From positions 2,250,521-2,314,520 of the forward strand of contig NZ_CP082286.1 in the NCBI RefSeq assembly GCF_019880245.1: a stretch of DNA of 64,000 bases, written 5' to 3'. Shown here piece after piece: positions 5,404 to 42,667 of this stretch. Made by a program: the position numbers and the translations under genes. Every line of letters begins with the position of its first letter. Position 1 is the stretch's first letter. The notes under the pieces were generated by a model. It worked only from the letters and a program-made list of their open reading frames with translations, made no database searches and was not told where the DNA came from. Origin of the DNA: Halobaculum roseum. GTDB lineage: Archaea > Halobacteriota > Halobacteria > Halobacteriales > Haloferacaceae.

Positions 5404-5424
5404 GCGTAAATTCGAGCGATGATG

Positions 5425-5432
5425 GTCTTAAC
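5425..5432 (-). promoter_or_regulatory. TATA-like box of the homocitrate-synthase-like gene
   Basis: On the minus strand this reads GTTAAGAC and its centre lies about 26 bases before the ATG at 5403. That spacing fits a leaderless haloarchaeal transcript. Confidence 0.5.
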
Positions 5433-5563
5433 TCTAGTCCCCGGGTGGTCGCCGCGTGGCCGTCGTATGGATGGTCGGAACGTGGAGCGTCTTTGGTTGT
5501 GGAGTGGGTGCAGTCCGGTGGTTTTGCGTTAAAATGTGTGGGCAGTGGCGTCCGTATCCGATA

Positions 5564-5572
5564 CACTTAACG
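5564..5572 (+). promoter_or_regulatory. TATA-like box of the CoA-transferase gene
   Basis: CACTTAACG is centred about 27 bases before the ATG at 5595, as expected for leaderless transcription. The CTTAAC core matches the boxes before the divergent synthase and the aldehyde dehydrogenase. Confidence 0.55.
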
Positions 5573-5594
5573 TGGTTGTTATTCGTTACCATGT

Positions 5595-12420: not shown

Positions 12421-12614
12421 ATAGGAATTATCTTTCTCCGTATTGTTCTAAGAATACAATTAATAAAACTGTTGGCGAGTGTATAGACGTTCCGCTTCGC
12501 TTGAACTCAGCGTATCTGAACATTATCCACTTTAACGAGCCCAATTTCTCCAACAATCGGACCACGTCTAATCTAGCGAGTCTGGGTCTGCTACGTCCAG
12601 ATCGGATTGTGAAA

Positions 12615-14134: not shown

Positions 14135-14810
14135 ATGGCTTCTCACACCTACCGCACGCTCAGAAGAGAAGATTCGCGACCGGGACGCCGAGCTGGAGCA
14201 CATCAGTGCCCAGACGGAACTCAGCACTCAAGACGGGCGGGCGAAGCGGACCCCCGAGGTCGTCACCGAACGTCGGCAGCGCAAACGGGCGGAACGCACT
14301 CTGGACGGGACGGATCCGAGCGAGCGCCTCTCTCGGATGGAGCTGGCGACGGAGAACGAGGAAGCAGACCGGATCGCACAGCGGCTTCGGACAGACCACA
14401 GTCGAGCGGCCGTCTCCCGGGTGCTCGCGAGGCGGGTCGCACGGGGCCAGGACATCACCGAAGCGGTGTTCGCGACGATGGACGAATTGAAGGCGGCCCC
14501 CGGGCCCATCTGCCCCATCGAGGATGTCCCGGACGTGCCGACCGACGAGGTGAGCATCGAAGGTGAGGTGATCACGCTCTGGGATGCCAGCAATTCGAAG
14601 ATCGCCCAAGTGGGCCTGATCGCAGACGACACCGGAAAAATCAAGTTCATCTCGCGGCGCAGATCGGAGCCAGCCTGCGTCCAGGAAGGTGACACCGTGC
14701 GGATGCGGGCCGACAAGAAGAACTGGTACGAGGGACGGTGCTCACTCGCCGTGACCTACGACAGTATGATCGTCTTCCCAGAGCGCGACCGCCGCTGGTG
14801 GGAAGCGTAG
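14135..14810 (+). pseudogene. ssDNA-binding OB-fold protein with a one-base frameshift
   Basis: From the ATG at 14135 the reading is MASHTYRTL. A single extra A at about 14162 shifts the frame; skipping it gives EEKIRDRDAELEHISAQTEL and an open frame to the stop at 14810. The C-terminal part has an OB fold: VSIEGEVITLWDASNSKIAQ, then GLIADDTGKIKF, then EGDTVRMRADKKNWYEGR. This is the replication-protein-A/SOSS-B-like family common on haloarchaeal elements. It follows a family B polymerase pseudogene, so the two formed a replication or repair module. An internal ATG at 14337 might allow a shorter protein that keeps the OB fold. A sequencing error is possible and would restore the gene. Confidence 0.65.
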
Positions 14811-17021: not shown

Positions 17022-17906
17022 TCACAGCGTAGCTTTGATAGCGTGTTTGAGCGCTTCTCTTCCCGGTTTCCGCAGTAGTTTTCGTCGAAGCTGGAACGCT
17101 CGGAGATACTGTGTGAGCTTATCTTTTGAGACGCCTCGATGAGGCGAGAGCCACGGTCGCAGCAACGATCCGTGGCTCTCGCAGGTATTGACGTGGACGT
17201 CTTCATTCGCGTATTCGCCGTCGCCGTGGACGACGTATTCGCGGTCGAATGCGTCGTCCTCGTCGAGTGGGTCGTAGGTACGAAATCCGTCAGTGTAGAC
17301 GGTCAGTGGCTCCTTCTCGCGGTTTGCGAGAAGGAGCCGAACCGTCGATTCATCGGCGGATTTCGCGGGGATCACATACCGATTGCCGGTGCCGCGATCG
17401 ACGATCGTGAACACCGGCGGTTTGTCCTGCTCGTACGATCCTCGTCCACGCGTGGACAGGCCACGCGAGCGCGACCGACCGTCGCGCTCGCGGCCTTTCA
17501 GCCCTGCAGAAACGTAGACTTCGTCGATTTCGACGGGACCGACGAGGTCGAGCGAAGGCGCGTCGAGCGCCTTCGTGAAGCGCTCGACGCGCTGGTAGAT
17601 CGTTTTGTACTGAACGTCGATTTCGAGCTGAAGTTGGCGAAGACTCGTGTTAAACCGGAGAAACGCGTAAATCGAGAACAGCCACTTCCTGAGCGCGACT
17701 TTCGAATGGGCGAAAATCGTGCCGGTCTTGTCGTTGAATGTGCGGTCGCAATTCTTACAGAGATAGCGCTGAAAGTGCCCATAGCTGCCGTTCTTGACCG
17801 TTCGGTCAGAACGGCAGCGAGGGCAAGTAACACCGTTACGCCAGCGAACCTGCTGCAACAGGTCCGCTGCGACCGATTCCGACCCAAACACATCTAGCGG
17901 AATCAT
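17022..17906 (-). CDS. IS1595-family transposase
   Basis: This 294-residue protein is full length for the family. It starts with a zinc ribbon (CPRCRSDRTVKNG and YLCKNCDRTF), followed by an HTH region. A DDE-type catalytic core follows, with the first Asp in VEIDEVYVSAG, the second in VYTDGFRTYDP, and the His/Asn-rich end NTCESHGSLLRPWLSPHRG with KLTQYLRAF. It should cut and paste the 1001-bp element that carries it. The start at 17906 follows a strong leader hairpin. Confidence 0.92.
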   Translation of the reverse strand: MIPLDVFGSESVAADLLQQVRWRNGVTCPRCRSDRTVKNGSYGHFQRYLCKNCDRTFNDKTGTIFAHSKVALRKWLFSIYAFLRFNTSLRQLQLEIDVQYKTIYQRVERFTKALDAPSLDLVGPVEIDEVYVSAGLKGRERDGRSRSRGLSTRGRGSYEQDKPPVFTIVDRGTGNRYVIPAKSADESTVRLLLANREKEPLTVYTDGFRTYDPLDEDDAFDREYVVHGDGEYANEDVHVNTCESHGSLLRPWLSPHRGVSKDKLTQYLRAFQLRRKLLRKPGREALKHAIKATL

Positions 17907-23492: not shown

Positions 23493-23611
23493 TCGCAACA
23501 CGTCTTTCATCAGGTCATCGAACTCGAACCCCGAGAGGCCGTCCAACAGGGGCATCGCTGTTTAAACATCGTGTAGTCATGTGTGTCTGCTCTGTTCGAT
23601 ACTTACGGGGT

Positions 23612-23641
23612 GGTTTCTGGGCGCCACGACAGGCGAGGCGC
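23612..23641 (+). repeat. Intergenic hairpin repeat, copy 1
   Basis: GGTTTCTGG is followed by a GCGCC/GGCGC stem around an 11-base loop with CGACAGG. GCGTGCCTCG follows at 23660-23668, before the ATG at 23678. Same element as at 24612, 25131 and 40921. Confidence 0.65.
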
Positions 23642-23677
23642 GGCCGGCGAGCGGGTCGGCGTGCCTCGGAGTCGATT

Positions 23678-24601
23678 ATGGCTAGGAGCGATACAGCGGT
23701 CTCGTTCTCCGGGACCGACGGCCGACGCGACGAGATGCACAGTGCGATCGACCAGTGGCTCGACGACCTCGTGGAGGCGACCGAGTCGGCGCGAGCGAGC
23801 GAGGCGTTCCAGGAATGGCTCGATGTCCAGAGTCGCTTCCACGACTACTCGGCACGGAACACGATGCTCATCCAACAGCAGTGTCCCGAGGCACGGAAGG
23901 TCGCGGGGTACCGGACGTGGCAAGAGGAGTTCGACCGGCACGTGAAAGAGGGTGAATCGGCGATCTGGATCTGGGCACCGATCGTCACGACGCGGTGTCC
24001 CGAGTGTGAGAACGCGCCGTCGTACCACGCCGACAGTGATTGCGAGTACGACGAGACCCCGCCCGAGGAGTGGGACGAGGGTCTGGTCGGGTTCCGTCCG
24101 GTCCCCGTGTTCGATGTCTCCCAGACCGAAGGCGAGCCGTTGCCGGAACTGGAGTATGCAGCGACGGGCGACGCCGGCGATCTCGTGGAACGGTTGACCG
24201 ACGCCGCTCATCAGCTCGGCGCGTCGGTCGAGATCGTGCCCGAGGCTGCCTGGGAGCACGGCGACGCGAACGGGATCTGCTCGGAGCCGAGGCAGGCCGG
24301 CGAGAAGCCCGTGATCGAGGTTCGGGATCGCGAGAACCGTGCCGACCTCGCCCGGACGATCGTCCACGAGTACGCTCACGCCCAGCTACACGTCGGCGTC
24401 GATGACGAGACCGAGCGGGCGAAACGCGAGGTGGAGGCCGAGGCGGTCGCGTACGTGGTCACACGGTACGTCGGCTTGGACCCGAGCGGGTCGGCGTTCT
24501 ACCTCGCGTCGTGGGCGGGCGACGACGCCGGCGTGATCCGGGAGCGGCTCGACAGAATTAGCCGGACGGCAGAGACGATCATCGAACCGCTGGGCACGTA
24601 A
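23678..24601 (+). CDS. ArdC-like antirestriction / ImmA-type metallopeptidase protein
   Basis: The ATG at 23678 gives 307 residues; the frame is open upstream to 23579, but that part is the hairpin repeat. The N-terminal half resembles the ArdC ssDNA-binding domain, with RFHDYSARNTMLIQQQCP and VAGYRTWQEEFDRHVKEGE. Next comes a Cys pair segment (CPECENAPSYHADSDC). The C-terminal half holds the zinc metallopeptidase motif HEYAH (24364-24378) with a downstream EVEAEAVAYVV helix. ArdC-type proteins protect incoming conjugative DNA from host restriction, which fits the nearby secretion genes. It is followed by SWIM and TFB genes, each preceded by the same hairpin. Confidence 0.8.
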   Translation: MARSDTAVSFSGTDGRRDEMHSAIDQWLDDLVEATESARASEAFQEWLDVQSRFHDYSARNTMLIQQQCPEARKVAGYRTWQEEFDRHVKEGESAIWIWAPIVTTRCPECENAPSYHADSDCEYDETPPEEWDEGLVGFRPVPVFDVSQTEGEPLPELEYAATGDAGDLVERLTDAAHQLGASVEIVPEAAWEHGDANGICSEPRQAGEKPVIEVRDRENRADLARTIVHEYAHAQLHVGVDDETERAKREVEAEAVAYVVTRYVGLDPSGSAFYLASWAGDDAGVIRERLDRISRTAETIIEPLGT

Positions 24602-25189: not shown

Positions 25190-26107
25190 GTGATCGGCAC
25201 TGCTGTGTACGAACGACGGTACGACGAATCGACCCAGCAAACGGACGCGAACACCTGCCCGGACTGCGGCGGGCGGGTGACGATGACCGGCGCGGAGGCA
25301 GTCTGCGACGACTGCGGACTCGTGCTCGCAGACGAGGAAGTAGATCTCGGCCCAGAGTGGCGGTTCGCGGGAGAAGACGGCGCCCGCAAGCGGACGGGCG
25401 CCCCACGCACGCCCGCTCGGCACGACCGCGGGCTCTCGACGCGGATCGGTCGGACCCGTGACGGCAAGGGGAACGCGCTCGACGGCGACACGCGCCGTCG
25501 ATTCGCCCGGCTGCGGCGCGAGCAGCGCCGATCGAAGACGGAATCGAAGGCCGACCGCAACCGCCGACACGGGTTCACGCAGATCCGACGCATGGCGAGT
25601 GCGCTCGGCCTCGGCGACTCCCTGCGGGATCAGGCGTGTCGGCTGTTCGAGACCGCCCAGGACGACGGCCTTCTCGTGGGCCGATCGATCGAGGCGATGA
25701 GCGCCGCGGCGGTGTACGCGGCATGTCGGTGTACCGGTCGCCCCGAGACGCGGGGCGATGTGAGCCGTGTCGCGCAGGTGAGCAGGGCACGGGTGGACAA
25801 CGCCTACACGTCACTGAATCGCGAGCTGGGCCTGCCCGTGCCGCCGCGTGAGCCGGCGACGTTCCTCCCGAAACTCGTGTCGGCCCTGGAGCTTCCACGC
25901 GCGGTCGAACGGCGAGCCCGGGACGTTCTCGATGCGTCACCGTCGGTGGTCGGGACTGCCGGGCACCCTCAGGGAATTGCCGGCGGGGCGATCCTCGTCG
26001 CCGCGCGGGAGTTGAATGTCCGCGATCGGTTCAGCCAAGCGGAATTGGCGACCGCCGCGGACGTGACGCCGGTGACGCTTCGCAAGCACCGGAACGCACT
26101 CGAGTAG
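25190..26107 (+). CDS. Transcription initiation factor IIB (TFB)
   Basis: With a GTG start this is a 305-residue complete TFB. It has the N-terminal zinc ribbon (CPDCGG and CDDCGLVL), the B-finger region WRFAGEDGARKRTGAP with STRIGRT, and two cyclin-like repeats (ASALGLGDSLRDQACRLF and a second one ending VTLRKHRNALE). It recruits RNA polymerase to TBP-bound promoters. A TFB on an accessory element may direct the element's own promoters. A broken paralogue lies at 22942-23492. Confidence 0.9.
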   Translation: MIGTAVYERRYDESTQQTDANTCPDCGGRVTMTGAEAVCDDCGLVLADEEVDLGPEWRFAGEDGARKRTGAPRTPARHDRGLSTRIGRTRDGKGNALDGDTRRRFARLRREQRRSKTESKADRNRRHGFTQIRRMASALGLGDSLRDQACRLFETAQDDGLLVGRSIEAMSAAAVYAACRCTGRPETRGDVSRVAQVSRARVDNAYTSLNRELGLPVPPREPATFLPKLVSALELPRAVERRARDVLDASPSVVGTAGHPQGIAGGAILVAARELNVRDRFSQAELATAADVTPVTLRKHRNALE

Positions 26108-28239: not shown

Positions 28240-28510
28240 ATGGGGACGACACGCCCGACCTACCGACAGATGCTCTCGGAGTGGATCGACGACTGGCGAC
28301 CGTTTCGCGAGTGGCTCCGGCGACCGCAGCAGCAGGCGTTCGACCGAGTCGGCGAACACGCCCAATACTGTGCGGCGGCCGCCCGTCAGCACAACGAGCG
28401 GGTCATCGCGATGCCGATCCTCGTGTCGATTCGCGTCGAGCAGCAGCGAGAGACCGACGAGCTCCGTGACCGGCTGGCCGACCTCGAGGAGTTACGACGG
28501 GATCTATCCG
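28240..28510 (+). pseudogene. Hypothetical gene that has lost its own stop codon
   Basis: The ATG at 28240 follows the previous stop by 2 bases. About 90 residues look native (PTYRQMLSEWIDDWRPFREW, then helical RETDELRDRLADLEELRRDL). After about residue 92 the frame continues to 29295, but only as antisense of the SRAP gene. The natural C-terminus was therefore probably replaced when the two genes were joined. The end given here marks where native sequence stops, not a stop codon. Confidence 0.45.
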
Positions 28511-29193
28511 GAGCCGAATTCCCCGAGTCCCGACTGCTCGTGGTCCAGCGGCTCGATGACCTGGGGGTCGTCGTTGCCGGGGTTGTTGACGCGCGTGGAG
28601 ATCTCGTAGGCGGCCAGGTCATCCTCCGGATACGGCCGGCAGTGTTCTTGGCGGGCGTCCGGCCCTGCGGTCAGCCACTCGGACTCGGCGTCCTGCGGGA
28701 GGACGACCGGCATCCGGTCGTGGATAGGGTCCATCAGGTCGTTCGGCTCCGTCGTCAGGATCGTCACGCACGAGATCGTCTCATCGTCTCCTTCCCAGAC
28801 GTCCCAGAGGCCGGCCATCGCGAACGCCGACTCGCCGTCGCGGTAGATCCGGTAGGGCTGCTTCGCCCCACCGGTCGATGCTCGCCATTCGTAGAACCCC
28901 GACGAGATGACGAGACAGGGACGGGATTCCCACGCCTCTTGGAAGACGCGCTTTTCCGCAGCCGTCTCCGAGCGGGCGTTGATGAGGCCCTCCTCTGGTT
29001 CGTCCGCCCAGAACGGGATGAGGCCCCAGTGGGAGGCGTCGATCTCGTCGGGGGCCTTGTTCGTGATGATGTGCAGGTCGTCGCCGGGCGCGATATTGTA
29101 GCGCGGCGTATAGCCGCCGTCCGCGACGACCTCCGCGTCGAAACGGGCTTCGAGATCGGCTTGTGGATGGAAGAGGGAGTTGCGCCCACACAT
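28504..29193 (-). CDS. SRAP-domain protein (HMCES/YedK family)
   Basis: The ATG at 29193 gives 229 residues and places Cys at position 2 (MCGRNSLF), the residue that forms a covalent thiazolidine bond with abasic sites in single-stranded DNA. A longer in-frame start at 29223 would bury it. Other SRAP motifs are YNIAPGDDL, WGLIPFWADEP, INARSETAAEK, SSGFYEW (catalytic Glu) and IHDRMPVVLP (catalytic His). The protein should shield abasic sites in ssDNA, useful for conjugating DNA. It is convergent with the truncated gene at 28240. Confidence 0.9.
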   Translation of the reverse strand: MCGRNSLFHPQADLEARFDAEVVADGGYTPRYNIAPGDDLHIITNKAPDEIDASHWGLIPFWADEPEEGLINARSETAAEKRVFQEAWESRPCLVISSGFYEWRASTGGAKQPYRIYRDGESAFAMAGLWDVWEGDDETISCVTILTTEPNDLMDPIHDRMPVVLPQDAESEWLTAGPDARQEHCRPYPEDDLAAYEISTRVNNPGNDDPQVIEPLDHEQSGLGEFGSG

Positions 29194-31157: not shown

Positions 31158-32255
31158 CTACCCCAGCGGGGAGGGGCCTGCCCGATCAAGCCACTCGCGC
31201 ACCCGCCCGCTGGGCAGGTGACTCTCCGCCCACAGGTCATCGAACGTCGTCTCCGCCCAGCGGCGGAGCGCGTCGGGCTCCCCGACGACCGCCGCGTTCC
31301 GCTCGTGGCGTGTCGATCCGCCCACCATCACCGTCTCCCGATTGAAGATCGTGAGCCCGGTGTACAGTGGCTCCGGGTGGACCCGCACGTCGACATTCGA
31401 GGACAGCACCGCGTCCGCGAGGTACTGCAGCCGATCCGGGTGTGTGAGGTCGCGGTACGCCCGTCGATCGAAGATGACTTGCTGCCGTGCGGTCCCGTCG
31501 GTCGTTCTGCCGAACAGATCGAACAGCACCGGAATGCACACGGGGATGATCGTCCGTGCGTGATGGAATTCGCCGTCGCGGATCCCGGCGGCCTCCACTG
31601 CAGCATCGAGCATCGCGTGGGGGGCGTCGGGCGTCTCCACGACGAGGTCGGCGCCGTCGAGCGCCTGCAACGGCGGGTCGGCCCAGTAGCTCATCGTCCG
31701 GAGCGCCGGCGCCTTCGCGATCGTCTGTTCGATCGCATCGACGAGCCAGTCGATCCGTTCCAGATCGACGGCGCCGCGCTGTGTCGCGGTGAACCGGCCG
31801 TCGGCCGTTCGCTCCACCCAGCCGAGCTCGTCGAGTCGGGCGACTGCCCGGTGGACGGTCGCTCGCGAGGGAAGCTGGTCGTCCGCGGCCAGCGTCGCCT
31901 TGTCGGCCGCCCCGCCCACGAGCGCTCGCAGGAGTGCGCGTCTGGAGTCGGATTTCGCGAGATAGGCGATCGCAGTCGGGTCCGTCTGTGTCGCGACGCG
32001 CCGATACGCGGCAATGGCTTTCACGCCGGCCCGTGTCGTTCGGTACCCGGTGTCCGCGTCGTCGACGACGAACCCGATCGCTTGGAACTCGTCGAGGCGA
32101 CGGTAGATCGTCTTCCGGCACGCGTCACACTCGGTCGCCACCTCGGTCGGCGATGCGCCGCCACCCATACACTCGAGGACCGACAGTAAATCGACTCGAT
32201 CCGGATCCGTGTGGGAGACGGACAGCTCTCGAACGACCCCCCAGGGTCCGTTCAT
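31158..32255 (-). CDS. HTH transcriptional regulator with FilR1-type domain
   Basis: The 365-residue protein has two winged-helix segments. The first holds SPTEVATECDACRKTIYRRL (about residues 36-55), and the second RATVHRAVARLDELGWVER (about residues 130-148). They are followed by the FilR1-type ligand or effector domain (QVIFDRRAYRDL, TGLTIFNRETVMVGG, ALRRWAETTFDDLW). It is divergent from the secretion-like operon and shares its upstream region, so it is the obvious candidate regulator of that operon. Confidence 0.78.
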   Translation of the reverse strand: MNGPWGVVRELSVSHTDPDRVDLLSVLECMGGGASPTEVATECDACRKTIYRRLDEFQAIGFVVDDADTGYRTTRAGVKAIAAYRRVATQTDPTAIAYLAKSDSRRALLRALVGGAADKATLAADDQLPSRATVHRAVARLDELGWVERTADGRFTATQRGAVDLERIDWLVDAIEQTIAKAPALRTMSYWADPPLQALDGADLVVETPDAPHAMLDAAVEAAGIRDGEFHHARTIIPVCIPVLFDLFGRTTDGTARQQVIFDRRAYRDLTHPDRLQYLADAVLSSNVDVRVHPEPLYTGLTIFNRETVMVGGSTRHERNAAVVGEPDALRRWAETTFDDLWAESHLPSGRVREWLDRAGPSPLG

Positions 32256-32291: not shown

Positions 32292-32479
32292 CCTCTGCCG
32301 AACCGTTCAGAGATCCTCACACTGTGGGACGCCGTGAGTACTTCGCCGTCGGTGGCAGAATTCGACCGATGGCATCAGGCTGTGACGGTCGCCCGCTCGA
32401 CGACGACCCCTCCACCGGACACCCGCTGGCGGGGGACGGGCGATCCTCGACGGACTGCGAACGCTCGGATCGACGGACA

Positions 32480-32866
32480 GTGCTCCCCGATCGGACCGCG
32501 GTGGTGCGAGTGAGCGTCTGTCTCGTGCTCCTCGTGGTGGCCGCCAGCGGGACGGTCGCCGCGCAGGACGAGGAGCCGACGAACCCCGTCTGTACTGACG
32601 AGTCGGACACGCTCGCCAACATGATCGAGGGCTTCGTGCAGATCACCACCGGGCTGGGGATCATGGGCCTGCTCGTGGTCTGGCAGGCGGACGCCCTCAT
32701 GGAGATGTTCACGCTCGGTCGCGAGCAGAAGGCAAAGATCAAACAGCACAAGCGCGGCGCCGGCCGGTCGGCGCTCACGCTGGTCGTGCTCGGACCGCTG
32801 TTCACCGTCGGCGGCACCGCGATGGACCTCCCGATCGCCGAGTGTGTCGATCTCATCCCCTTCTGA
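32480..32866 (+). CDS. VirB2/TrbC-like pilin candidate
   Basis: From the GTG at 32480 the protein has a secretion signal (SVCLVLLVVAASGTVAAQ). Two hydrophobic segments follow, TTGLGIMGLLVVWQADALM and SALTLVVLGPLFTVGGTAM, split by a basic loop (KAKIKQHKRGAG). This layout is that of conjugative pilins of the VirB2/TrbC type. The open frame reaches back to 32324, but the extra residues are Arg/Asp-rich and precede the signal, so an internal GTG is preferred. It is the first gene of the operon. Confidence 0.6.
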   Translation: MLPDRTAVVRVSVCLVLLVVAASGTVAAQDEEPTNPVCTDESDTLANMIEGFVQITTGLGIMGLLVVWQADALMEMFTLGREQKAKIKQHKRGAGRSALTLVVLGPLFTVGGTAMDLPIAECVDLIPF

Positions 32867-32869
32867 CCG

Positions 32870-34603
32870 ATGCGCCGAGGATCCTCGCTGTCGGCTGCGG
32901 CCCTCATCGTCATGCTCGTCGGGAGTCTGGTCGCCGTCGCCGCCGGGCGCCCGCCGTCACCCCAGCAGGAAACCCACGGGCTGACCGAGGCGGAGGCGGC
33001 GTCGCTGTGGAGCCGGGACAACGACTCAGGCTACGTCACGAACAGTGAGTACGAACGGCGCTACAACGAGTTGCGCTCGGCCGGCGAACAGCTCGCCAAC
33101 GCCAGCGATATCACGTTCCGGCGGCCGCCCGACACCGCGGCACGCTGGACGCGGGCGGACCATCGCGATGCCACGCCGGGCGACGCGAACGTCTCAGTAC
33201 ATCCGCCCCACGCGACCCTCACCGACGGCCGGTATATCCGGGACGCCCATGCGACGCTGTTCGCGATCACCCCGTCCACGACTGTCCACCGGACCCGGGC
33301 CGAGACGACCGAATACGTCGCCCCGAACGGGACGGTTCGGGGGCTGGTGGACTACCGGGTCGCCGTCCCCGGCGCGGAGTCGGACAACAACACGACGGCC
33401 GACTACACGCTCGCGAGCAGTCGGATCGAGTCGGTTCGCCTGGAGACGGGTGACGGAACCACGCTCGCGCGAACGAACGGGACCGCGCTGCCAGCGATCA
33501 ACTACACGTTGACTGACGATGTCGACTCGCTCGTCCTCGTCGCCACGATCCGTGCCGAGCTTCGCCTCGACCGACCGCAGCTTCCGAACGGGACGGCCGC
33601 GAATACGACGCCGCGAACCGTGTCGGAGACGGTGACGGTCCGGGACCGTCGGGCGATCGAGCCGTACACGCCGACGATCGCGCTCGCCCGCGGGCGAACG
33701 CCCGAGGGGGACCGCCTCCTCGCGGCGTTCCACTCGGCGCCGTGGCTCGGCCTCCGGTTCGGCGCCGAGGGCGACCGACAGGTGCGGGGTGTCTGGCGCT
33801 TCTACACTGCCCGCGACGTTCGATGGGACACGCTCGAACGGTCGAGCCGGACCGGCACCCGGGAGATCGAGTCCCCGGCCCTGCCGGTCGCGGTCCACGC
33901 GTATCCCTCCCGGCTCGGCCCCCGGAGCGAGCCGACCGGCCGCGACCCCCGGATCACCGATGTCTGGGGGCGCGATCGCCGGTCGCCGGCGGCATCGCTT
34001 CCCGATACCGTCTCCGTCGACGTGGTCGAACGCGAGTACACGGCGTCGTACGGGCTGGCCGTCCGCACCGCGCCAGCCCACGCCGAGGGTGTCGAGGCGG
34101 TCGGGATCGTTCGCGGCGTCGACGTGCCGATCGACGAGACCGGGCAGACGCGACAGCTCCGGCGCAGCGATCTGACCGTGGAGATCGTCGACCAGGACGA
34201 TGACGGGGCGACACTGCGCATCGTGTTGACCGATGCCGTCACCGGCGAGCCGATCGCCCTCCGCCGGCCCGAGGCGCCGTTCGAGATCCCGTCGACCGCC
34301 ACCCGCGAGGGATATGTCGCCGTCGCGGGCGAGCGGGTGCGGACGAACGTCTCGGGCGTCGCCATGGTGACCGTCTCCGAGCCCGGCGTGTACACGGTGG
34401 AGTATGTGCCCGGCTCGTGGGTGGCACACCACCCGGCGTACGTCGGGACGAGTGCGACCGCCCGCTGGCACCCGCTGGCGACGCCGGCGGGGTGGCTACG
34501 CCTGCTCGGGCGGACGCTCCAGTGGGCGCTCCCGTTCGCGCTCGCGCTGTATGCGGGGCGCCGACTCGGACGGCTGGTCCGGTTCGGGGAGGTGGAGCCA
34601 TGA
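32870..34603 (+). CDS. Large exported protein with N- and C-terminal membrane anchors
   Basis: The 577-residue protein has an N-terminal signal/anchor (SAAALIVMLVGSLVAVAAG) and a single C-terminal membrane helix (LQWALPFALALYAG) with a short basic tail. In between is about 500 residues of extracellular, Asn-X-Ser/Thr-rich sequence (many likely N-glycosylation sites) with beta-type strands and a domain with PGVYTVEYVPGSWVAHH. It starts 3 bases after the pilin-like stop and overlaps the next gene. In the operon it would be a surface or channel component. No family recognised. Confidence 0.65.
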   Translation: MRRGSSLSAAALIVMLVGSLVAVAAGRPPSPQQETHGLTEAEAASLWSRDNDSGYVTNSEYERRYNELRSAGEQLANASDITFRRPPDTAARWTRADHRDATPGDANVSVHPPHATLTDGRYIRDAHATLFAITPSTTVHRTRAETTEYVAPNGTVRGLVDYRVAVPGAESDNNTTADYTLASSRIESVRLETGDGTTLARTNGTALPAINYTLTDDVDSLVLVATIRAELRLDRPQLPNGTAANTTPRTVSETVTVRDRRAIEPYTPTIALARGRTPEGDRLLAAFHSAPWLGLRFGAEGDRQVRGVWRFYTARDVRWDTLERSSRTGTREIESPALPVAVHAYPSRLGPRSEPTGRDPRITDVWGRDRRSPAASLPDTVSVDVVEREYTASYGLAVRTAPAHAEGVEAVGIVRGVDVPIDETGQTRQLRRSDLTVEIVDQDDDGATLRIVLTDAVTGEPIALRRPEAPFEIPSTATREGYVAVAGERVRTNVSGVAMVTVSEPGVYTVEYVPGSWVAHHPAYVGTSATARWHPLATPAGWLRLLGRTLQWALPFALALYAGRRLGRLVRFGEVEP

Positions 34604-35433
34604 CCGACCGAATGCCCCGCCGGCGCCTGCTCGCCGTCGCCGGGAGCACGCTTGTCGGCCTCGCAGGATGTAGTCAGCGTGACGGTGGCTCGCCCTCGGA
34701 GACGGGGTCGGATTCGCCGGGCGGGTCGACGGATCCGGACGGCCCGTTCGAACGCCTCGCGATGCGCGGCACGAATCTCGTGATCGAACTCCGGGAAGAC
34801 AGTCAGGTCGAGCAAGTAAACGTAATCGCGCCGAACGGCTCCCGCGTACGGTCGCTGTCGGTCGTCACGGGGGAGACGCGACTCACCGTCGACCTGGGCG
34901 TCCGGTACGTGCCCGGGACCTACGAGGTGACCACCGAGGCCGGCGCGACCGCGTCGATCACGTTGGAGCCGGACCTCGTCATCGAGGAGCTGGGCGTCGG
35001 CGCGAACAATCCCGACGTGATGCCTGATTCCTTAGACAATTTCGAGCCATATGCGGGTACGGTCGTAGTACGAAACGAAGGGACTGGACCGACTGCTGTT
35101 CAGAATCTCATCTTCACTGGCGACGTTCCGAATGTCACCGAAGACGTCCGCGATTCATCCCGTAAGAGTGGGATATTCGATGCGGACGAAGGAGTTGGTG
35201 AACGGGACTACGTGCTAATTCCTGTCGAGGAATCCGTGCGGCTATTTTCGAGTACAATACCGTTCTCGTTCGCAGGGCAGGAGCGAACCTGTTCCTCAAT
35301 GCCGGAGGAGAGTACCGTGATTGTCCAAGTGGAGGACACGGTACGGTCTGAAATAACTGAGGCAGCGTTCGATGCGAGCTACCGCCCTACATCGGACAAC
35401 TGTGACATCGCGATCAACAGACGGGAGGAGTGA
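34600..35433 (+). CDS. Tat lipoprotein of the secretion-like operon
   Basis: The ATG at 34600 overlaps the previous stop. The signal is twin-arginine type (MPRRRLLAVAGSTLVGLAGC) with a lipobox Cys. The 277-residue protein has beta-rich repeats (VNVIAPNGSRVRSLSVVTGE and YVPGTYEVTTEAGATASI). From about residue 140 (base 35020) the G+C content falls clearly and codons become more AT-rich, and this continues into the next gene. The C-terminal half and the next gene's first half therefore probably came by recombination from a related element. Confidence 0.7.
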   Translation: MTDRMPRRRLLAVAGSTLVGLAGCSQRDGGSPSETGSDSPGGSTDPDGPFERLAMRGTNLVIELREDSQVEQVNVIAPNGSRVRSLSVVTGETRLTVDLGVRYVPGTYEVTTEAGATASITLEPDLVIEELGVGANNPDVMPDSLDNFEPYAGTVVVRNEGTGPTAVQNLIFTGDVPNVTEDVRDSSRKSGIFDADEGVGERDYVLIPVEESVRLFSSTIPFSFAGQERTCSSMPEESTVIVQVEDTVRSEITEAAFDASYRPTSDNCDIAINRREE

Positions 35434-35436
35434 CTG

Positions 35437-36564
35437 ATGGTGCAGATTCCACTCTCCGATTACGGTGTTGAGTGGTTCAAAGACATCCTCGGTCAGATAA
35501 CTGCATGGTTCAGAGAACAGCTCGTTGAGGGATATCAGAAACTTACTACGGAGCTGTTTGAAACACCGCTCCCCGACGGGACTGGGTTGGAGGTCGTATT
35601 CGATTCTCCGGAGCCAGGTACTACCCCGTGGTACGATGTCTATCAGACCGTCGTCGGCGGGGAAGTGATGATTCTAGCGCTCATCATTCTATTCCTCTCC
35701 GTTCAGGGACGCCATTTCGTCCGGGTATTCCATTTTGGATCTCCACAACGCGACCGGCGAACACGCCGTAATGCGTGGACTGGTGGCTGTCTTATCGTTG
35801 CGTGGTACTGGATCGCCGTACTCACACTGTACTTCGTCAATGGATTGATCATCGGGATAATCCCGAACGTCACACAAATCGGCGCGGGTGTTCTGGAATT
35901 ACTCCCTACGTCCGCAGTGAACCCCGTAATGACGTTCGGACTCACGAGCGTTGGTGCTGTCGCACTTTCGACTCTCCAAGCGATCTTCTTCCTGCGGGAA
36001 GTCCTCCTGTACGTCTATCTGTACGGGATGCCGATCGGCCTCGCGTTCGCGTTCGGCAACCTCCCCGTGGTCTCGCGGATCGCCGCCCGCTTTTGCAGAC
36101 AGTTCATCCCACTCGCGGTCCTGCCGATCCCGGCTGCCGTGCTGTTCCGTGGCTACGGGTTGTTGTTCGGCGGCGATCCCGTCGTCTCCCCGACCCGACC
36201 GCTGTTCGGCTACGTCGTCGCGATCTCGTTGCCCGTGGTGGGGCTGTACGTCACGTGGAAGACGTTCCGGTACGCCGCGCCGCTGGTTACGGGCGCGCTC
36301 GCACGGACCGGGCGGACCGCCGCGACGCTCGGGCTCGTCGCCGGGGTGGGTGCGACCGTCGGGGGCGGGGCCGCGGCGACGACCGCCCGCTTCGGCCCGC
36401 GTACCGGCATGACTTACGCGGCCGTACAGCGCGTCACTGACGGCGGGTCGTCACAACGCGGCGCATCGACGACGACGACCCAGGACAACGTCGCGACCGA
36501 CCGGTCCGGCGACGGGGGGATCCCGGCCTACCGTCGTCCAGAGAACGACCCGGGGCGCACCTAA
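35437..36564 (+). CDS. Polytopic membrane protein, VirB6/TrbL-like
   Basis: This 375-residue protein has about seven hydrophobic segments (for example GGEVMILALIILFLSVQG, CLIVAWYWIAVLTLYFVNGL and LFGYVVAISLPVVGLYV). A periplasm-type N-terminal domain of about 70 residues precedes them, and an unstructured Gly/Thr-rich tail follows. VirB6/TrbL proteins have this layout and form the inner-membrane channel of type IV secretion systems. The first 550 bases are of lower G+C content than the rest, matching the switch in the upstream gene. It lies 3 bases after the lipoprotein gene. Confidence 0.6.
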   Translation: MVQIPLSDYGVEWFKDILGQITAWFREQLVEGYQKLTTELFETPLPDGTGLEVVFDSPEPGTTPWYDVYQTVVGGEVMILALIILFLSVQGRHFVRVFHFGSPQRDRRTRRNAWTGGCLIVAWYWIAVLTLYFVNGLIIGIIPNVTQIGAGVLELLPTSAVNPVMTFGLTSVGAVALSTLQAIFFLREVLLYVYLYGMPIGLAFAFGNLPVVSRIAARFCRQFIPLAVLPIPAAVLFRGYGLLFGGDPVVSPTRPLFGYVVAISLPVVGLYVTWKTFRYAAPLVTGALARTGRTAATLGLVAGVGATVGGGAAATTARFGPRTGMTYAAVQRVTDGGSSQRGASTTTTQDNVATDRSGDGGIPAYRRPENDPGRT

Positions 36565-36567
36565 TCG

Positions 36568-37656
36568 ATGAGTTCCGACTCCACCGCAGCCGACCGTCGT
36601 ATCATGACCCAACTGGGGGAAGCACACCGGATCCCGCTGGTGAACCTTCGCGAGGGTGACTTCGGCGTTCTCGTCGGGTTTCCCGTCGCGGGACTACTGG
36701 CGGGGAGCGTGCTGTTCGACCCGCTCGTCGTTCCGCTCGCTCTGCTCGGCCTCGTGGTCGGTGTCGCGGCGGTGTACGCCGCTCCGCGTCACCTGACCGC
36801 CTCGAGGTGGCTCCGGGACGTGGGTCGGTATCTCCTGTGTCGCCCGCGGTACACGCTCTCGCAGCCGGCCGGGGCCGACCACTCCGGTACGGACGGCGAA
36901 TCGGTGCCCTACACCCCGTTCATCCCCGACGAGCGGACGCAGGACCTCACGAACGTCGCACGAGCGTGGCCCGGGACGGGCGTCATCGAACGGGAGGACG
37001 GCGCGCTCGAAGCGTTCATCACCGTTCGGCCGGGCAACATGGACTTCGCGATGTCGGGCGACTGGGAACAGCTCCAGGCGACCGGCGCGCGGTTCGCGAA
37101 CAACGACCTCGAGTTCCCGCTGACGGTCCATACGACGACCCGCGCGTTCCCGGCGGACCGCCTCGTCGACCGCCTCGCCGACCGGCAGGCGGACCCCGAC
37201 GTGGCGAGCAACGACGCCTTCGCCGCGCTCCTGAAGGAGTACCGCGACCGGCGACCGGCGGAGTTGGCGGACACCACCCGGCACCGCTACTACCTCGGCG
37301 TCACCGTCACCCCGTCGGACGTTGCGAGTCGCCGCCACGGCGAATCCTCCGTCCGCGACCGGCTCACCGCCATCCCGGTCGTCGGGGTGGTCGTCGCGGC
37401 CCTCCTCTCCCGGCCGACTGGGGGTGGACCGGCCGCCCGTCGGCAGGCGATGTACGACCGCCTCTGTGACCGCCTGCACACGCTGGAGCACGACCTCGTC
37501 GAGCCGATGGCCGACTGGGAGCATCGCCGGCTCTCGACGCTGGAGTTGTTCGTCCTCGCGGCGGAGTTCTGGAACGGGCCCGAGTACGACGACGCCGAGC
37601 GGCTGCTCGCGACGGCGCCGGCGCCGGGCCGCGCCCGCCGGCGGGAGGACGACTGA
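36568..37656 (+). CDS. VirB3/PrgI plus VirB4-N-like membrane protein
   Basis: The 362-residue protein begins with two membrane segments (FGVLVGFPVAGLLAGSVLF and VVPLALLGLVVGVAAVYA) and a basic loop, as in PrgI or VirB3. It continues with the N-terminal domain typical of VirB4 (PGTGVIEREDGALEAFITVR, then RPGNMDFAMSGDWEQLQATG). The segment YLGVTVTPSDVASRRHGESS has the strand pattern of that domain. The next gene begins inside its stop (TGATG). It should link the membrane complex to the ATPase. Confidence 0.65.
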   Translation: MSSDSTAADRRIMTQLGEAHRIPLVNLREGDFGVLVGFPVAGLLAGSVLFDPLVVPLALLGLVVGVAAVYAAPRHLTASRWLRDVGRYLLCRPRYTLSQPAGADHSGTDGESVPYTPFIPDERTQDLTNVARAWPGTGVIEREDGALEAFITVRPGNMDFAMSGDWEQLQATGARFANNDLEFPLTVHTTTRAFPADRLVDRLADRQADPDVASNDAFAALLKEYRDRRPAELADTTRHRYYLGVTVTPSDVASRRHGESSVRDRLTAIPVVGVVVAALLSRPTGGGPAARRQAMYDRLCDRLHTLEHDLVEPMADWEHRRLSTLELFVLAAEFWNGPEYDDAERLLATAPAPGRARRREDD

Positions 37657-39728
37657 TGCAGGCGGCGATCGCCGACCTCGTGGCGGCGCTACAAACGCTG
37701 CCACGGCCGCTCTCACCTGAGGGACTGTTCGTCTACGGCGTCGGAGGTGTTACCCTCCTCGTCGTCTTTGCCCGGCTCCGACAGTGGCTGGCCGGCCGGG
37801 GCGATACACAGACGTTCGGCGATCTTCTCGCGGAAGAGACCGTCGACGCAGGTCGTGAGGAGGCAGTTGCGTTCGACACGCTGGCGGACCGGCACCGAAC
37901 GGCGCTCGCGCCCGAAGCCGTCGAGTGGGAGCCGCGTGCGGCACGGGTCGGCGACCAGTGGACGACCACGCTCACCGTCGCGGCGTACCCCGACCATCCG
38001 ACCGACGGCTACCTCAGCGGCCTGTTCGAGCTGACCGACATCGAGTTCGATCTGACGGTCCACGTGGACCCGCTGCCCCAGGAGCGGGCCCGCGACCGCC
38101 TTCAAGCGGCCGCCGACGACCTGCAGGCCGACGCGGATCTGGAGCGCAGCGTGCGGGAGTCGTACCTGCAGGACCGCGCGGCGGCGGCGACGGCCACGTA
38201 CAAGGCGGTCGAGAACGGTCAGCGTGTGTTCTCCCAGTCGCTGTTCATCACCGTCCGGGCGGACTCCCGCGAGGACCTCACGGACGCCGTCGCCGCCGTC
38301 CGCACCGCGGTGCGCGACCCGCCGGCACGGCTGGAGCCGGCGACGGCGGTGTGTCTCCAAGACCGGGCGCTGCAGGCGGCCGCACCCATCGGCGGCGACC
38401 CGCTCGATCGCGGCTCCATCGCCCTCGGCGGCGCCGTCGGCGCCCTCCTCGCGTCGCCACACTCGCCGACGATCCTCGAGGAGGGCGGCGTCGAGTTCGG
38501 CGTGCACAAGGACACGCGGAGTCCGCTCGTGGTCGACCCGTTCGCCCGCGAGGACGGCTACGCGATGTTTACGGTCGGCGACCCCGGCTCGGGGAAGTCC
38601 TACAGCGCGAAACAGAACTTCATCCGGAGTCTGTCGCAGTCCGACGACCGGATCGGGATCGTCCTCGAACCGCTCACCAACTGGGCCGGCGTCTGTGAGG
38701 CACTCGGCGGCCGGCGGATCACCGTCGGCGGCACGCTCGGTCTCAACCCCCTGGAGATCAAGCCGACGCCCGAGCACGTGCTGGAGGCTCGCGGCGACGA
38801 CGCGAGCCCGCTGAAGGAGCGTCAAGAGCGGGCGCTGGCGTTCTTCACCAACGTGTTCGCCACGCGGGGCGTCGAGTTGGGTGACCGCCGCACGACGCTG
38901 GAGACGGCGCTCACGGCGGCGTACGAGCGGAAGGGCATCACCGAGGACGTCTCCACCCACGACCGGGAGAGTCCGACCGTCCGCGACATGCTCGATATTC
39001 TCGCGGAGATGGCCGACGCTCCCGGCGAATACGTGATCCGGACCGACGACGAGGCGAAGAAGATCGCCGACGACGCGGTGTGGCTGCTCGACCAACTGCG
39101 GCCCTTCGCCGAAGACGGGCAGTTCGAACAGCTCGGTCGCCACAGCGAGTTCGACATCCGCGACGAGTCGCTGGTGTATCTCGATCTGGCCGAGCAGGGC
39201 GGGCAGGTCGGCGGGCATACGAGTCTCCTGATGGAACTGCTCATCTCGCTGGTGTACGAGCGAGCCAAGGAGACGGACCAGGAGGTCGTCTTTGTCATCG
39301 ACGAGGCGCGGTACCTCATGAAGGACGCGGCGACGCTGTCGTATCTGGAGACGATCTTCCGGCACCACCGCCACCACGACCTGTCGATCCGACTGGTGAC
39401 CCAGACCGTCGACGAGTTCTTCGAGCACGACACCGCGGAGATGATCCTCGACCAGTGTGCGATCAAGCAGTTCCACAAGCTCGACGGGATGGACAGTGAG
39501 TGGGCCGACGAGTTCGGCTTGAACCACCCGCAGATGCGGTTCGTCCAGACGGCGACGCCCGGCGACGAGGAGGCCGGCTACTCGCAGGCGTTGCTCGGTG
39601 TGGACGGCGAGTGGCGCGGGATGGAGGTCCGGGCCTTGCCGCGGGAACACGAGGTGATCACCCACGACCCGCAGCAGGCGGACGGCCCGCTCGCCGACGA
39701 CCCCGGGGAGGTGGCCGCCGATGACTGA
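37656..39728 (+). CDS. VirB4-family conjugation ATPase
   Basis: The 690-residue protein has a membrane-proximal N-terminal region (VYGVGGVTLLVVFARLRQW), then a VirB4-like domain, then an ATPase core. The Walker A GDPGSGKS (about residues 308-315) is preceded by GYAMFTV, and Walker B is VVFVIDEARYLM (about 545). The arginine-finger-like segment FRHHRHHDLSIRLVTQTVD follows. Such HerA/FtsK-type ATPases drive pilus assembly and DNA transfer in type IV secretion. It overlaps both neighbours. Confidence 0.85.
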   Translation: MQAAIADLVAALQTLPRPLSPEGLFVYGVGGVTLLVVFARLRQWLAGRGDTQTFGDLLAEETVDAGREEAVAFDTLADRHRTALAPEAVEWEPRAARVGDQWTTTLTVAAYPDHPTDGYLSGLFELTDIEFDLTVHVDPLPQERARDRLQAAADDLQADADLERSVRESYLQDRAAAATATYKAVENGQRVFSQSLFITVRADSREDLTDAVAAVRTAVRDPPARLEPATAVCLQDRALQAAAPIGGDPLDRGSIALGGAVGALLASPHSPTILEEGGVEFGVHKDTRSPLVVDPFAREDGYAMFTVGDPGSGKSYSAKQNFIRSLSQSDDRIGIVLEPLTNWAGVCEALGGRRITVGGTLGLNPLEIKPTPEHVLEARGDDASPLKERQERALAFFTNVFATRGVELGDRRTTLETALTAAYERKGITEDVSTHDRESPTVRDMLDILAEMADAPGEYVIRTDDEAKKIADDAVWLLDQLRPFAEDGQFEQLGRHSEFDIRDESLVYLDLAEQGGQVGGHTSLLMELLISLVYERAKETDQEVVFVIDEARYLMKDAATLSYLETIFRHHRHHDLSIRLVTQTVDEFFEHDTAEMILDQCAIKQFHKLDGMDSEWADEFGLNHPQMRFVQTATPGDEEAGYSQALLGVDGEWRGMEVRALPREHEVITHDPQQADGPLADDPGEVAADD

Positions 39729-40908
39729 CCCGCCGGTTCCGACCGCCGACCGCCTGCCGGAGACGCTGACAGACCGCGACCAGTGGGTGTGTTGGCGCAG
39801 CGAACAGCGGGACGACAAGTCGACGAAAGTCCCGATCGAGCCGGGCGGCGGGTACGCCTCCGCGACGGATCCGGACACGTGGCGGTCGTTGTCCGTGGCG
39901 AGAGACCACGCCGTCGATACGGGCGACGCAGGGGTCGGCTTCGTCTTCACCGACGACGATCCGCTCGTCGGTGTCGACCTCGACGATTGCCGGGATCCGG
40001 ACACGGGTGCCCTTTCCGAATCGGCCGACGATATCGTCGAGCAGCTGAACTCATATACCGAGGTGAGTCCCTCGGGGACCGGCATCCACGTCATCGTCGC
40101 CGGCGACCTGCCCCGGGGCCGGAACCGACGTGGCGACGTGGAGCTGTACGACTCGGCACGATACTTCACCGTCACCGGCGACCGCGTCGACGGCACGCCC
40201 GATCACGTTGCCGAGCGACCCGAAGCGCTCGCCGCCGTCCACTCGGCGTACGTGGCACCGGACACGAGCGCCGCGAGCACGTCGGGATCCGACGCCGCCG
40301 CTTCGTCGGCCTCCCGATCGGGGAAGCAGGGGCCGGGGAACAGACTCTCGGACGCGGACCTCATTGACCGTGCGAGCGACGCCGCCAACGGCCCGAAGTT
40401 CCGGCGCCTCTGGCGTGGGTCCACTGCGGGCTATCCGAGCCACTCGGAGGCCGACATGGCGCTGTGTTCGCTGCTGGCGTTCTGGACGGGCGGCGACCCC
40501 GACCAGATGGATCGCCTGTTCCGGGAGTCGGGGTTGTATCGCGAGAAGTGGGACGAGGTCCACTTCAGCGACGGCGCGACGTACGGTGAGCGGACGATCG
40601 AACGCGCGATCGCGAGAACGGACGAGTACTACGATGAGAGTTCCAGTGAAGGCTGGACGCCTCTTGCGGTCACGAGCGCTGAGGATCGGGCATCGGAGCA
40701 AGCAGCCGGCAGCGGCGACGAGGGGTCGGTCGCGGACACGACCGGAGACGCGCTCGCGGATCTTCGAGCCGAACTGGCCAAGCTCGAGCAGGAGACGGAA
40801 CGGCTCCGGGAGGAACTCGCCGTCGAGCGGACGCGCCGAAAGGAACTCGAACGCGAACTCGCACAGCAGGAATCGTCCCGACTCTCGCGATATCTCCCCT
40901 GGCGGTGA
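39721..40908 (+). CDS. PrimPol-type (NrS-1-like) primase with coiled-coil tail
   Basis: The start lies 8 bases inside the VirB4 gene. The 395-residue protein has an archaeo-eukaryotic-primase fold: LVGVDLDDCRD holds the catalytic Asp pair (about residues 86-89), SPSGTGIHVIV is motif II (about 116-126), and ELYDSARYFTVTG is motif III (about 140-152). A helical domain (SEADMALCSLLAFWTGGD and RTDEYYDESSSEGW) follows, as in NrS-1-type polymerases, then a coiled coil (AELAKLEQETERLREEL). No helicase domain is attached. It likely primes element replication or second-strand synthesis after transfer. Confidence 0.75.
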   Translation: MTDPPVPTADRLPETLTDRDQWVCWRSEQRDDKSTKVPIEPGGGYASATDPDTWRSLSVARDHAVDTGDAGVGFVFTDDDPLVGVDLDDCRDPDTGALSESADDIVEQLNSYTEVSPSGTGIHVIVAGDLPRGRNRRGDVELYDSARYFTVTGDRVDGTPDHVAERPEALAAVHSAYVAPDTSAASTSGSDAAASSASRSGKQGPGNRLSDADLIDRASDAANGPKFRRLWRGSTAGYPSHSEADMALCSLLAFWTGGDPDQMDRLFRESGLYREKWDEVHFSDGATYGERTIERAIARTDEYYDESSSEGWTPLAVTSAEDRASEQAAGSGDEGSVADTTGDALADLRAELAKLEQETERLREELAVERTRRKELERELAQQESSRLSRYLPWR

Positions 40909-40920
40909 TGACCGCGCGGT

Positions 40921-40946
40921 CGGTTTTTGGGCACCCCGACGGGTGC
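40921..40946 (+). repeat. Intergenic hairpin repeat, copy 4
   Basis: CGGTTTTTGG then a GCACC/GGTGC stem around loop CCGACG (inner C-G pair possible). It begins 12 bases after the primase stop. The middle stem pair is A-T, the third variant of that position. The next start (GTG 40948) follows directly. Confidence 0.6.
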
Positions 40947-40947
40947 A

Positions 40948-41157
40948 GTGCGCGTACATTCACTGGTCGCTCGACTCAGGCGTATCGCTGCAGGAACCGA
41001 ACCGGACTGGGATCCGCTCGGAGTCGGCCGCGTCAGAACCTGCGAGCATCCTCGCGAGGCGATCCGCCGTAGCGACGAACCGGCACACGATTCCCGTATC
41101 GAGCAGTGTCAGGCGTGTGGGACGATCCTGCGCCGGTATCCGCTCGGAGATCTGTGA
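40948..41157 (+). CDS. Small Cys-containing protein
   Basis: From the GTG at 40948 this 69-residue protein reads VRVHSLVARLRRIAAG and ends IEQCQACGTILRRYPLGDL. It has one CxxC at the end plus a Cys-His pair (TCEHP), so a small zinc site is plausible. Its stop overlaps the next ATG (TGATG). A TTG at 40927 would place the start inside the hairpin. Family not recognised. Confidence 0.5.
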   Translation: MRVHSLVARLRRIAAGTEPDWDPLGVGRVRTCEHPREAIRRSDEPAHDSRIEQCQACGTILRRYPLGDL

Positions 41158-41375
41158 TGACCGCCCACGAGATCGAACTCAAATTCGAACACGAATCGGG
41201 TGATCAACGGAAGGTGGTGTTCGCGCCGAACCCGGAGCGCGGCTGTTGGAGCCGAAGCGAGTTCCGTCGGGACGAAGCCGATCAGCCGTGGCAGACGGTC
41301 GGTGTCGAACTGGTCGAGACTGTCGCCGTCAGCTGTACACCGGTTGAACTCACGGAGTCGGTTCGAGGGCCGTAA
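41157..41375 (+). CDS. Small hypothetical protein
   Basis: This 72-residue acidic protein (IELKFEHESGDQRKVVFAPN) overlaps the previous stop by one base and is likely the last gene of the secretion-like operon. It has two Cys residues and predicted beta strands (VGVELVETVAVSC). Function unknown. Confidence 0.55.
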   Translation: MTAHEIELKFEHESGDQRKVVFAPNPERGCWSRSEFRRDEADQPWQTVGVELVETVAVSCTPVELTESVRGP

Positions 41376-41449: not shown

Positions 41450-42667
41450 CTATTCGACGCCGGCCGCGGCGAGCCATTGGAACGTGCCGCTCCGTCCGGC
41501 GAGCACGAGCGGGTAATCCTCGACGACGATCCGGTAGTAGGGACGCGTCGCATCGACCCACGAACAGTGCGTCGGCTCCTCAAACCCGCTCGGCACGTGG
41601 CGACAGTACACCCGCCAGTCGTCGCGGCGATGGTACGCCGGCGTGACGCCCGTTTCAACACACAGTCGGAGCACGTGGCCCGCGAGCCGGTCACTGACCG
41701 TGTAGTAGGTGCGCTTCTCGTTCCCGTCGCCGGCGAGCAACGTTTCCAGCAGCAGGCGCTTCTGTGCGGGTGAACAGTCCCACACGAGCGACGGGAGCCG
41801 CTTCGAGCGACTGTCCGATCCACACAGCCGCGAGAAGATCCGGCCGTAGCAGTTCGAGCCGATTCTGAACGACCGATCGTCCTCCCGATAGGCGATTCCG
41901 AGCCGATCGAGGAGGCGTCTGATCGTGTCGCGGTACCGCGGTGTCTCCTGAGCGATCTTGACCGAGGCACTGTTCCGGTCCGATCCGGTGTAGATCGACC
42001 CTTCCGTCACGAGCCAGCCGAGCAGTTGAATGAAGTCATCGCCCGCAAACCGGTACGGTCGTGGGCGCTCCTTTGCTCCCGTTCGGATCCCGAGCGCGGT
42101 CGACTCCGCGTCGATGGCCTCCCGGTAGGTGTCGAAGGTCGCGGGATCGAACGCGTAGCCGACCTGTTTGTGTCGCCGTTTCGGTTCACACCCCGCTGGG
42201 AGTGCCGCTCGGAACGAATGCCCGTGCGACCCGTCGTACTGCGCGACGATCTCGTACTCCGTCGCGTGGTCCGTGAGGTCGACGACCTCCGTTCGGGACC
42301 TCCCGAGAGGGGTCCACTCGGAGATGAACCGATAGCGATGCCGCTCGTCCAGTCGATCCGCTCGCTGGTAGCGAACCAGGTCGATGTCGTCGGTCACGAA
42401 CGGCACGTACTGGCCGGGTGCCAGCCGGAGCCGCGCTCGTTGCGCGTCGATGTCGACCGCCGCCGCAGGTTCGATACGGTCCACGTCGACGACTCGCTTC
42501 AGTTTCATCGTCCGACTCAGGGGTTCCATCGTGTAGATACGGTCCCCACGCACGAGTTGGTCGACCGGGCAACTCCCGTCGGCGCCGAGCACGTTCGTTC
42601 CGGCGGCTAGTCCGCCGGACCGACCGCTTTCAGTCGGTGTGACGCCGTGTTCGGTGATGGTATCCAT
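41450..42667 (-). CDS. Free-standing Hint-domain LAGLIDADG homing endonuclease
   Basis: This 405-residue protein has an intein-like Hint start (GLAAGTNVLGADGSCPVDQL, about residues 19-38) where the usual nucleophilic Cys is replaced by Leu/Gly. It then has two LAGLIDADG helices, LLGWLVTEG (215-223) and LLLETLLAGDG (305-315), each with the acidic residue that binds metal. The C-terminus (RIVVEDYPLVLAGRSG) looks like intein block F but lacks the terminal His-Asn. No exteins are attached, so splicing is not possible, while DNA cleavage could be. It probably spreads the element by cutting at a target site. Confidence 0.75.
   Translation of the reverse strand: MDTITEHGVTPTESGRSGGLAAGTNVLGADGSCPVDQLVRGDRIYTMEPLSRTMKLKRVVDVDRIEPAAAVDIDAQRARLRLAPGQYVPFVTDDIDLVRYQRADRLDERHRYRFISEWTPLGRSRTEVVDLTDHATEYEIVAQYDGSHGHSFRAALPAGCEPKRRHKQVGYAFDPATFDTYREAIDAESTALGIRTGAKERPRPYRFAGDDFIQLLGWLVTEGSIYTGSDRNSASVKIAQETPRYRDTIRRLLDRLGIAYREDDRSFRIGSNCYGRIFSRLCGSDSRSKRLPSLVWDCSPAQKRLLLETLLAGDGNEKRTYYTVSDRLAGHVLRLCVETGVTPAYHRRDDWRVYCRHVPSGFEEPTHCSWVDATRPYYRIVVEDYPLVLAGRSGTFQWLAAAGVE

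Follow-up and report, generated by a model that had tools for sequence, protein, structure and literature searches.

Channel and motor roles are established for the components of VirB/VirD4 systems. In the T4SS operons of pNRC200 (Halobacterium salinarum NRC-1) and like plasmids, VirB4 is followed by a VirD4-like ATP-binding protein and a DNA primase. The operon described here lies in a 64,000-nucleotide stretch of Halobaculum roseum DNA (the whole stretch is called the window; C1 is the chromosomal contig that contains it). Our survey finds its MPF block in the same order as in the haloarchaeal plasmid operons, but the window copy sits on the chromosome, its operon is without VirD4, and a PrimPol replaces the PriS-like primase. 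Unlike the window copy, that of pNRC200 is broken upstream by insertion sequences.

Archaeal conjugation systems with no recognisable relaxase are a known situation, and several papers pose DNA preparation in such systems as an open question (PMC3158045, PMC6563490, PMC9905601, PMC12857230). The Ced/Ted systems of Thermoproteota share VirB6- and VirB4-type components, and a pilin-type one that is a candidate here, with the window operon and have no relaxase (PMC9905601); the window operon differs in its linked VirD4-type gene, its primase and its patchy distribution. Thaumarchaeal ICEs and the Thermococcus plasmid pT33-3 contain a VirB4 and VirD4 pair, as here, and no relaxase, in a gene order unlike that of the window (PMC6563490, PMC12857230). 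TFB genes are found in the thaumarchaeal ICEs as in the window element; some of these ICEs also have a PrimPol, which is treated as a replication protein and has a helicase domain that the window PrimPol lacks. Haloarchaeal fusexin IMEs carry VirB4, TraG/VirD4, HerA and XerC/D (PMC9259645); these and the window element are both large chromosomal insertions with VirB4 and TraG/VirD4-type genes, but the tyrosine integrase family PF00589 was not found in the interval of the window element. The plasmid R1162 protein MobA, as cited in PMC12857230, is a relaxase-linked primase encoded with transfer functions and required for mobilization; the window primase is of the archaeo-eukaryotic type, neither of two relaxase families searched was found with it, and the resemblance would be one of analogy. 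The open-licence literature consulted on haloarchaeal and archaeal T4SS and ICEs contains no description of the recurrent primase or of the split VirD4 layout reported below, which we provisionally regard as new.

Gene content of the operon

Seven large genes (window positions 32324-40908) follow one another with gaps of +3, -4, +3, +3, -1 and -8 nt, and two small ORFs are located downstream of the PrimPol gene (Table 1). The initial annotation had described a VirB-type operon running into a PrimPol and two small proteins, and its gene coordinates hold. Its VirB6-like channel, VirB4 ATPase and PrimPol-type primase are likewise borne out. Judged by sequence, the VirB6/TrbL identity of the channel protein is secure (Pfam PF19590, TrbL_3, E 3.9e-120 in a profile search). 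VirB4 has a Walker A motif (GDPGSGKS) at residue 308 and a Walker B motif at 544, matches the VirB4 structure 4ag5 among PDB profiles (E 9e-11), and over residues 79-637 matches the NCBIfam VirB4-like CD1110 family with E 4e-38, which is under the family's own cut-off. The PrimPol (395 aa) keeps the AEP catalytic motifs and the NrS-1 helix-bundle domain (HBD, E 1.7e-32), and matches NrS-1 primase structures with E ~1e-55. Its PHROG matches reach only to about position 304 of 772, short of the helicase part that full-length phage relatives possess.

Two assignments stand in part. For the 362 aa protein read as VirB3/VirB4-N, sequence searches gave no significant match, and the score of a profile-profile link to VirB4 was not significant. 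However, its low-confidence model (pLDDT 48) has R388 TrwK/VirB4 as its ten best Foldseek matches and aligns with TrwK/VirB4 at a VIA-align Z of 8.1, and two surveyed loci (L026 and L090) encode natural fusions of this protein to VirB4. The pilin is a plausible assignment only: its size, signal-like N-terminus and two hydrophobic segments fit VirB2, but sequence searches gave no significant match, and a plasmid homologue matched TrbC weakly (E 0.034). The 577 aa surface protein is conserved in nearly all surveyed haloarchaeal MPF operons; its low-confidence model gave generic beta-sandwich matches only.

Compared with the close relative L022, five of the six genes computed have a dN/dS of ∼0.09-0.26 and the pilin gene one of 0.53; the lipoprotein value was inconsistent and is not included. 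Because these ratios are low, the operon looks maintained by purifying selection. A stand-alone LAGLIDADG/intein-like gene is found right behind the operon; the L023 copy of its product is 92% identical and in the same place, and in L061 a relative lies directly behind VirB4 on the other strand.

Table 1. Features of the operon and of the surrounding interval (window positions unless marked C1)
Feature	Position	Strand	Remarks
VirD4-like ATPase, 1158 aa	C1:2209036-2212512	-	38-41 kb left of window start, 76 kb from VirB4
Putative ComEC-like metallo-hydrolase	C1:2241387-2242984
B-family DNA polymerase-like fragment	12501..13994	+	relatives near L025 MPF and in G109 element
SSB-like OB-fold protein	14337..14810	+	family in 6 of 10 elements compared
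IS1595-type transposase	17022..17906	-	identical copies at C1:2203656-2204540 (left of VirD4) and in L021 (240 kb contig), 5289-6170
ArdC-like anti-restriction protein	23579..24601	+
Transcription factor B (TFB) homologue of element	25205..26107	+
SRAP (SOS-response-associated peptidase)	28504..29193	-	family also in G351 element
HVO_A0261/FilR1-type regulator, divergent	31158..32255	-	same place in two relatives
VirB2-like pilin candidate	32324..32866	+	GTG start perhaps too early, real one maybe downstream
Exported beta-rich surface protein, 577 aa	32870..34603	+	C-terminal anchor
Tat-type lipoprotein	34600..35433	+	twin arginine and lipobox in sequence; conserved in haloarchaeal operons
VirB6/TrbL channel protein	35437..36564	+	PF19590
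VirB3-like membrane hairpin and VirB4-N-like domain, 362 aa	36568..37656	+
VirB4 ATPase	37656..39728	+
NrS-1-type PrimPol	39721..40908	+	primase, no helicase part
Small ORF	40927..41157	+	counterparts ~50% identical in L022 and L023
Small ORF	41106..41375	+	start uncertain, possibly 41157; counterpart 45% identical in L022
LAGLIDADG/intein-like protein	41450..42667	-	stand-alone

A VirD4-like ATPase and the proposed extent of the element

That no VirD4-type coupling protein is visible, as initially annotated, is true of the window, but the suggested search outside it located a VirD4-like gene to its left (Table 1). This is one of four VirD4-like genes in the genome (one each on a 240 kb and a 162 kb contig, and chromosomal ones at 714 and 2209 kb). 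We used the 2209 kb protein as a query over 391 genomes and compared the positions of its matches with those of VirB4. Among the matches listed, a stand-alone VirD4 is at most 100 kb from the MPF in 29 of 30 same-contig cases (median 29 kb); 21 of the 30 listed pairs are divergent, and VirD4 is on the 5' side in 20. Random placement on the 21 chromosomes >1.2 Mb among the listed matches yields a combined p of 8e-13, a value that treats genomes as independent and is overstated for relatives. The 76 kb separation in the window's genome, taken by itself, does not reach significance (p 0.10). Four chromosomal operons have an internal VirD4, and no stand-alone VirD4 accompanies them among the matches listed. 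DNA processing had been expected to be either unusual or encoded elsewhere. Since the VirD4 family is linked in nearly all listed same-contig cases and is found here 76 kb upstream of VirB4, 'elsewhere' is the right alternative for VirD4; the relaxase gap stands for the two families searched. Beyond the window, where none had been seen, the relaxase families PF01076 and PF03432 have no match in the entire genome (the PF01076 control likewise matched nowhere). Rep-Arvir replication proteins occur in haloarchaeal ICEs, according to the available part of PMC13107129; Rep-Arvir (PF25227) was considered as the missing relaxase and rejected, as a single copy ∼145 kb away.

The VirD4 C-terminus contains a winged-helix-like stretch and, in two VirD4 branches, conserved H, D..G, ExE and DYDK residues. 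As a lead only, these residues are reminiscent of PD-(D/E)xK nucleases; no Pfam nuclease or relaxase domain matched up to E 5, and the nuclease reading follows from motif conservation by itself.

The congeneric Halobaculum saliterrae (G294) holds, in ∼25 kb, VirD4, a 96 aa protein, DUF429, SSB-like, ArdC-like, DUF6735, SWIM, TFB, regulator, MPF and PrimPol. The window's genome has these families too, in an almost identical order that is interrupted by ∼35 kb of genes for transport and catabolism. Because G294 holds these families within 25 kb and VirD4 is linked, we interpret the window as the right-hand portion of one integrated conjugation element, which would measure ∼85 kb (C1 roughly 2208-2293 kb). 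Gene by gene, the evidence supports the earlier reading of a VirB-type operon that leads into a PrimPol within an archaeal element. A second G294 copy, which has lost most MPF genes, has VirD4 just 1.8 kb from VirB4; the host genes next to VirD4 in that copy are found here 15 kb to its left. Four other genomes have VirD4 at or near one conserved host gene, UppP-like by sequence, which marks the left edge. The element flanks differ among relatives in the window's own genus. For the right boundary we tried the right flank of the second G294 copy, which does not map beside the operon here; direct repeats were sought within the right edge only, with nothing att-like. We withhold ICE membership because PF00589 has no match in the ∼2208-2293 kb interval and the ends and att sites are unset.

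Several other genes were noted in this interval and in related loci. Copies of the IS1595-type transposase flank both sides of the inserted genes between VirD4 and the MPF, and the element contains an SRAP gene and a fragment resembling a B-family DNA polymerase. A putative ComEC-like metallo-hydrolase with a small partner gene lies near some MPF operons, downstream of VirB4 in L086 and L093. An exonuclease VII large-subunit-like gene is found close upstream of both plasmid-type operons (L007, 13549-14601; L009, 10451-11503); these genes are 90% identical despite a VirB4 similarity of only 40%, which suggests recent exchange or strong constraint.

Distribution and the recurrent primase

Of the 391 Halobacteria genomes sampled, 230, from 71 of 86 genera, have a VirB4 relative (E 1e-60 or better), a patchy distribution with 161 genomes lacking a match. 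At E 1e-5, relatives are found in 200 plasmid records; phage records and IMG/VR contigs yielded weak partial matches or none in place of close relatives. The window's genome has three MPF copies, on the chromosome and on the 240 and 162 kb contigs, the latter two with VirB4 proteins 64% and 41% identical to the window copy, respectively. The nearest relatives of the window operon are on contigs of Halobaculum, Halorarius and Haloglomus.

We surveyed the architecture of 86 loci, taken from the best VirB4 matches and labelled with profiles; the loci are phylogenetically non-independent, and small contigs from draft assemblies are possibly chromosome fragments. On contigs <260 kb, a VirD4-like ATPase (∼1200-1500 aa) directly follows VirB4 in 45 of 48 loci, and in 43 of these 45 VirD4 is followed by a primase, which is either a PrimPol of the window family or a PriS-like protein accompanied by a 507 aa partner. 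On contigs >1.2 Mb, 25 of 29 operons have no VirD4 in the operon; PrimPol comes directly after VirB4 in 12 of the 25, as in the window, and 13 show no primase in the stretch read, with a PrimPol instead ∼2-6 kb from the stand-alone VirD4 in three of the 13. Of the first 60 PrimPols listed, at least 32 have a listed VirB4 or VirD4 no more than 12 kb away. Haloarchaeal transfer operons thus recur with a primase that is either PriS-like or a PrimPol, two unlike types, and we consider this recurrence and the nuclease-like VirD4 C-termini interesting leads.

A probable conjugation element and its rival explanations

The operon is best explained as the VirB-type T4SS MPF module of a ∼85 kb haloarchaeal integrated conjugation element, with VirD4 at the left end, facing outward, and the MPF and PrimPol at the right end; we put the probability at about two in three. 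The VirD4-like ATPase would feed DNA into an inner-membrane channel of VirB3, VirB4 and VirB6, and the pilin, the 577 aa protein and the lipoprotein may build the cell-surface part. Because primase, SSB-like and ArdC-like genes are present, we infer that DNA would reach the recipient at least partly single-stranded and that its complementary strand would be primed by PrimPol, aided by the SSB-like and ArdC-like proteins of the element. The non-significant spacing in this genome, the ∼35 kb of ordinary genes between the ends, the missing PF00589 integrase, the absence of both relaxase families searched and the 13 chromosomal operons with no primase in the stretch read count against a conjugation element.

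The many chromosomal operons with no internal VirD4 (25 of 29), the position of some among ordinary chromosomal genes and the flanking genes that four genomes have in common would also fit a domesticated, VirD4-independent DNA exchange like crenarchaeal Ced/Ted, in which the MPF swaps chromosomal DNA and VirD4, though linked, has no part. The linkage of VirD4 in 29 of 30 same-contig cases among the matches listed argues against such an exchange, as do the 161 of 391 genomes with no match and the differing flanks within the window's genus, and we consider it unlikely. Rearrangement might instead have parted the MPF from VirD4 and left a decayed remnant that transfers nothing or serves plasmids in trans. 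The absence of PF00589 from the interval, the 76 kb between VirD4 and VirB4, where inserted genes are bracketed by IS1595 copies, the loss of most MPF genes in the second copy of the relative and the two plasmid-type copies with VirD4 in the same genome are in line with this, but all operon genes are intact and dN/dS is at most 0.26 in five of the six tested, and decay seems to us improbable. We give very little credence to a T4SS for protein secretion or a surface structure, unrelated to DNA: it would accommodate the failure to detect PF01076 or PF03432 and the large surface protein with no assigned function, but the operon contains a primase, plasmids have one behind VirD4, and the element has SSB-like and ArdC-like genes.

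We tentatively propose, as one possibility that is itself doubtful, a relaxase-free haloarchaeal conjugation in which a VirD4 with a fused nuclease-like C-terminal domain would make single-stranded DNA and a dedicated archaeo-eukaryotic primase, PriS-like or PrimPol, the two having been interchanged in evolution, would restore double-stranded DNA in the recipient. The open question of DNA preparation becomes testable here, with a VirD4 bearing the C-terminal H / D..G / ExE / DYDK signature and either primase type recurring with the same operon. The recurrence spans the class Halobacteria, which contains genetically tractable strains, and the primase at the operon end hints at a way in which DNA transfer in archaea might dispense with the usual relaxase.
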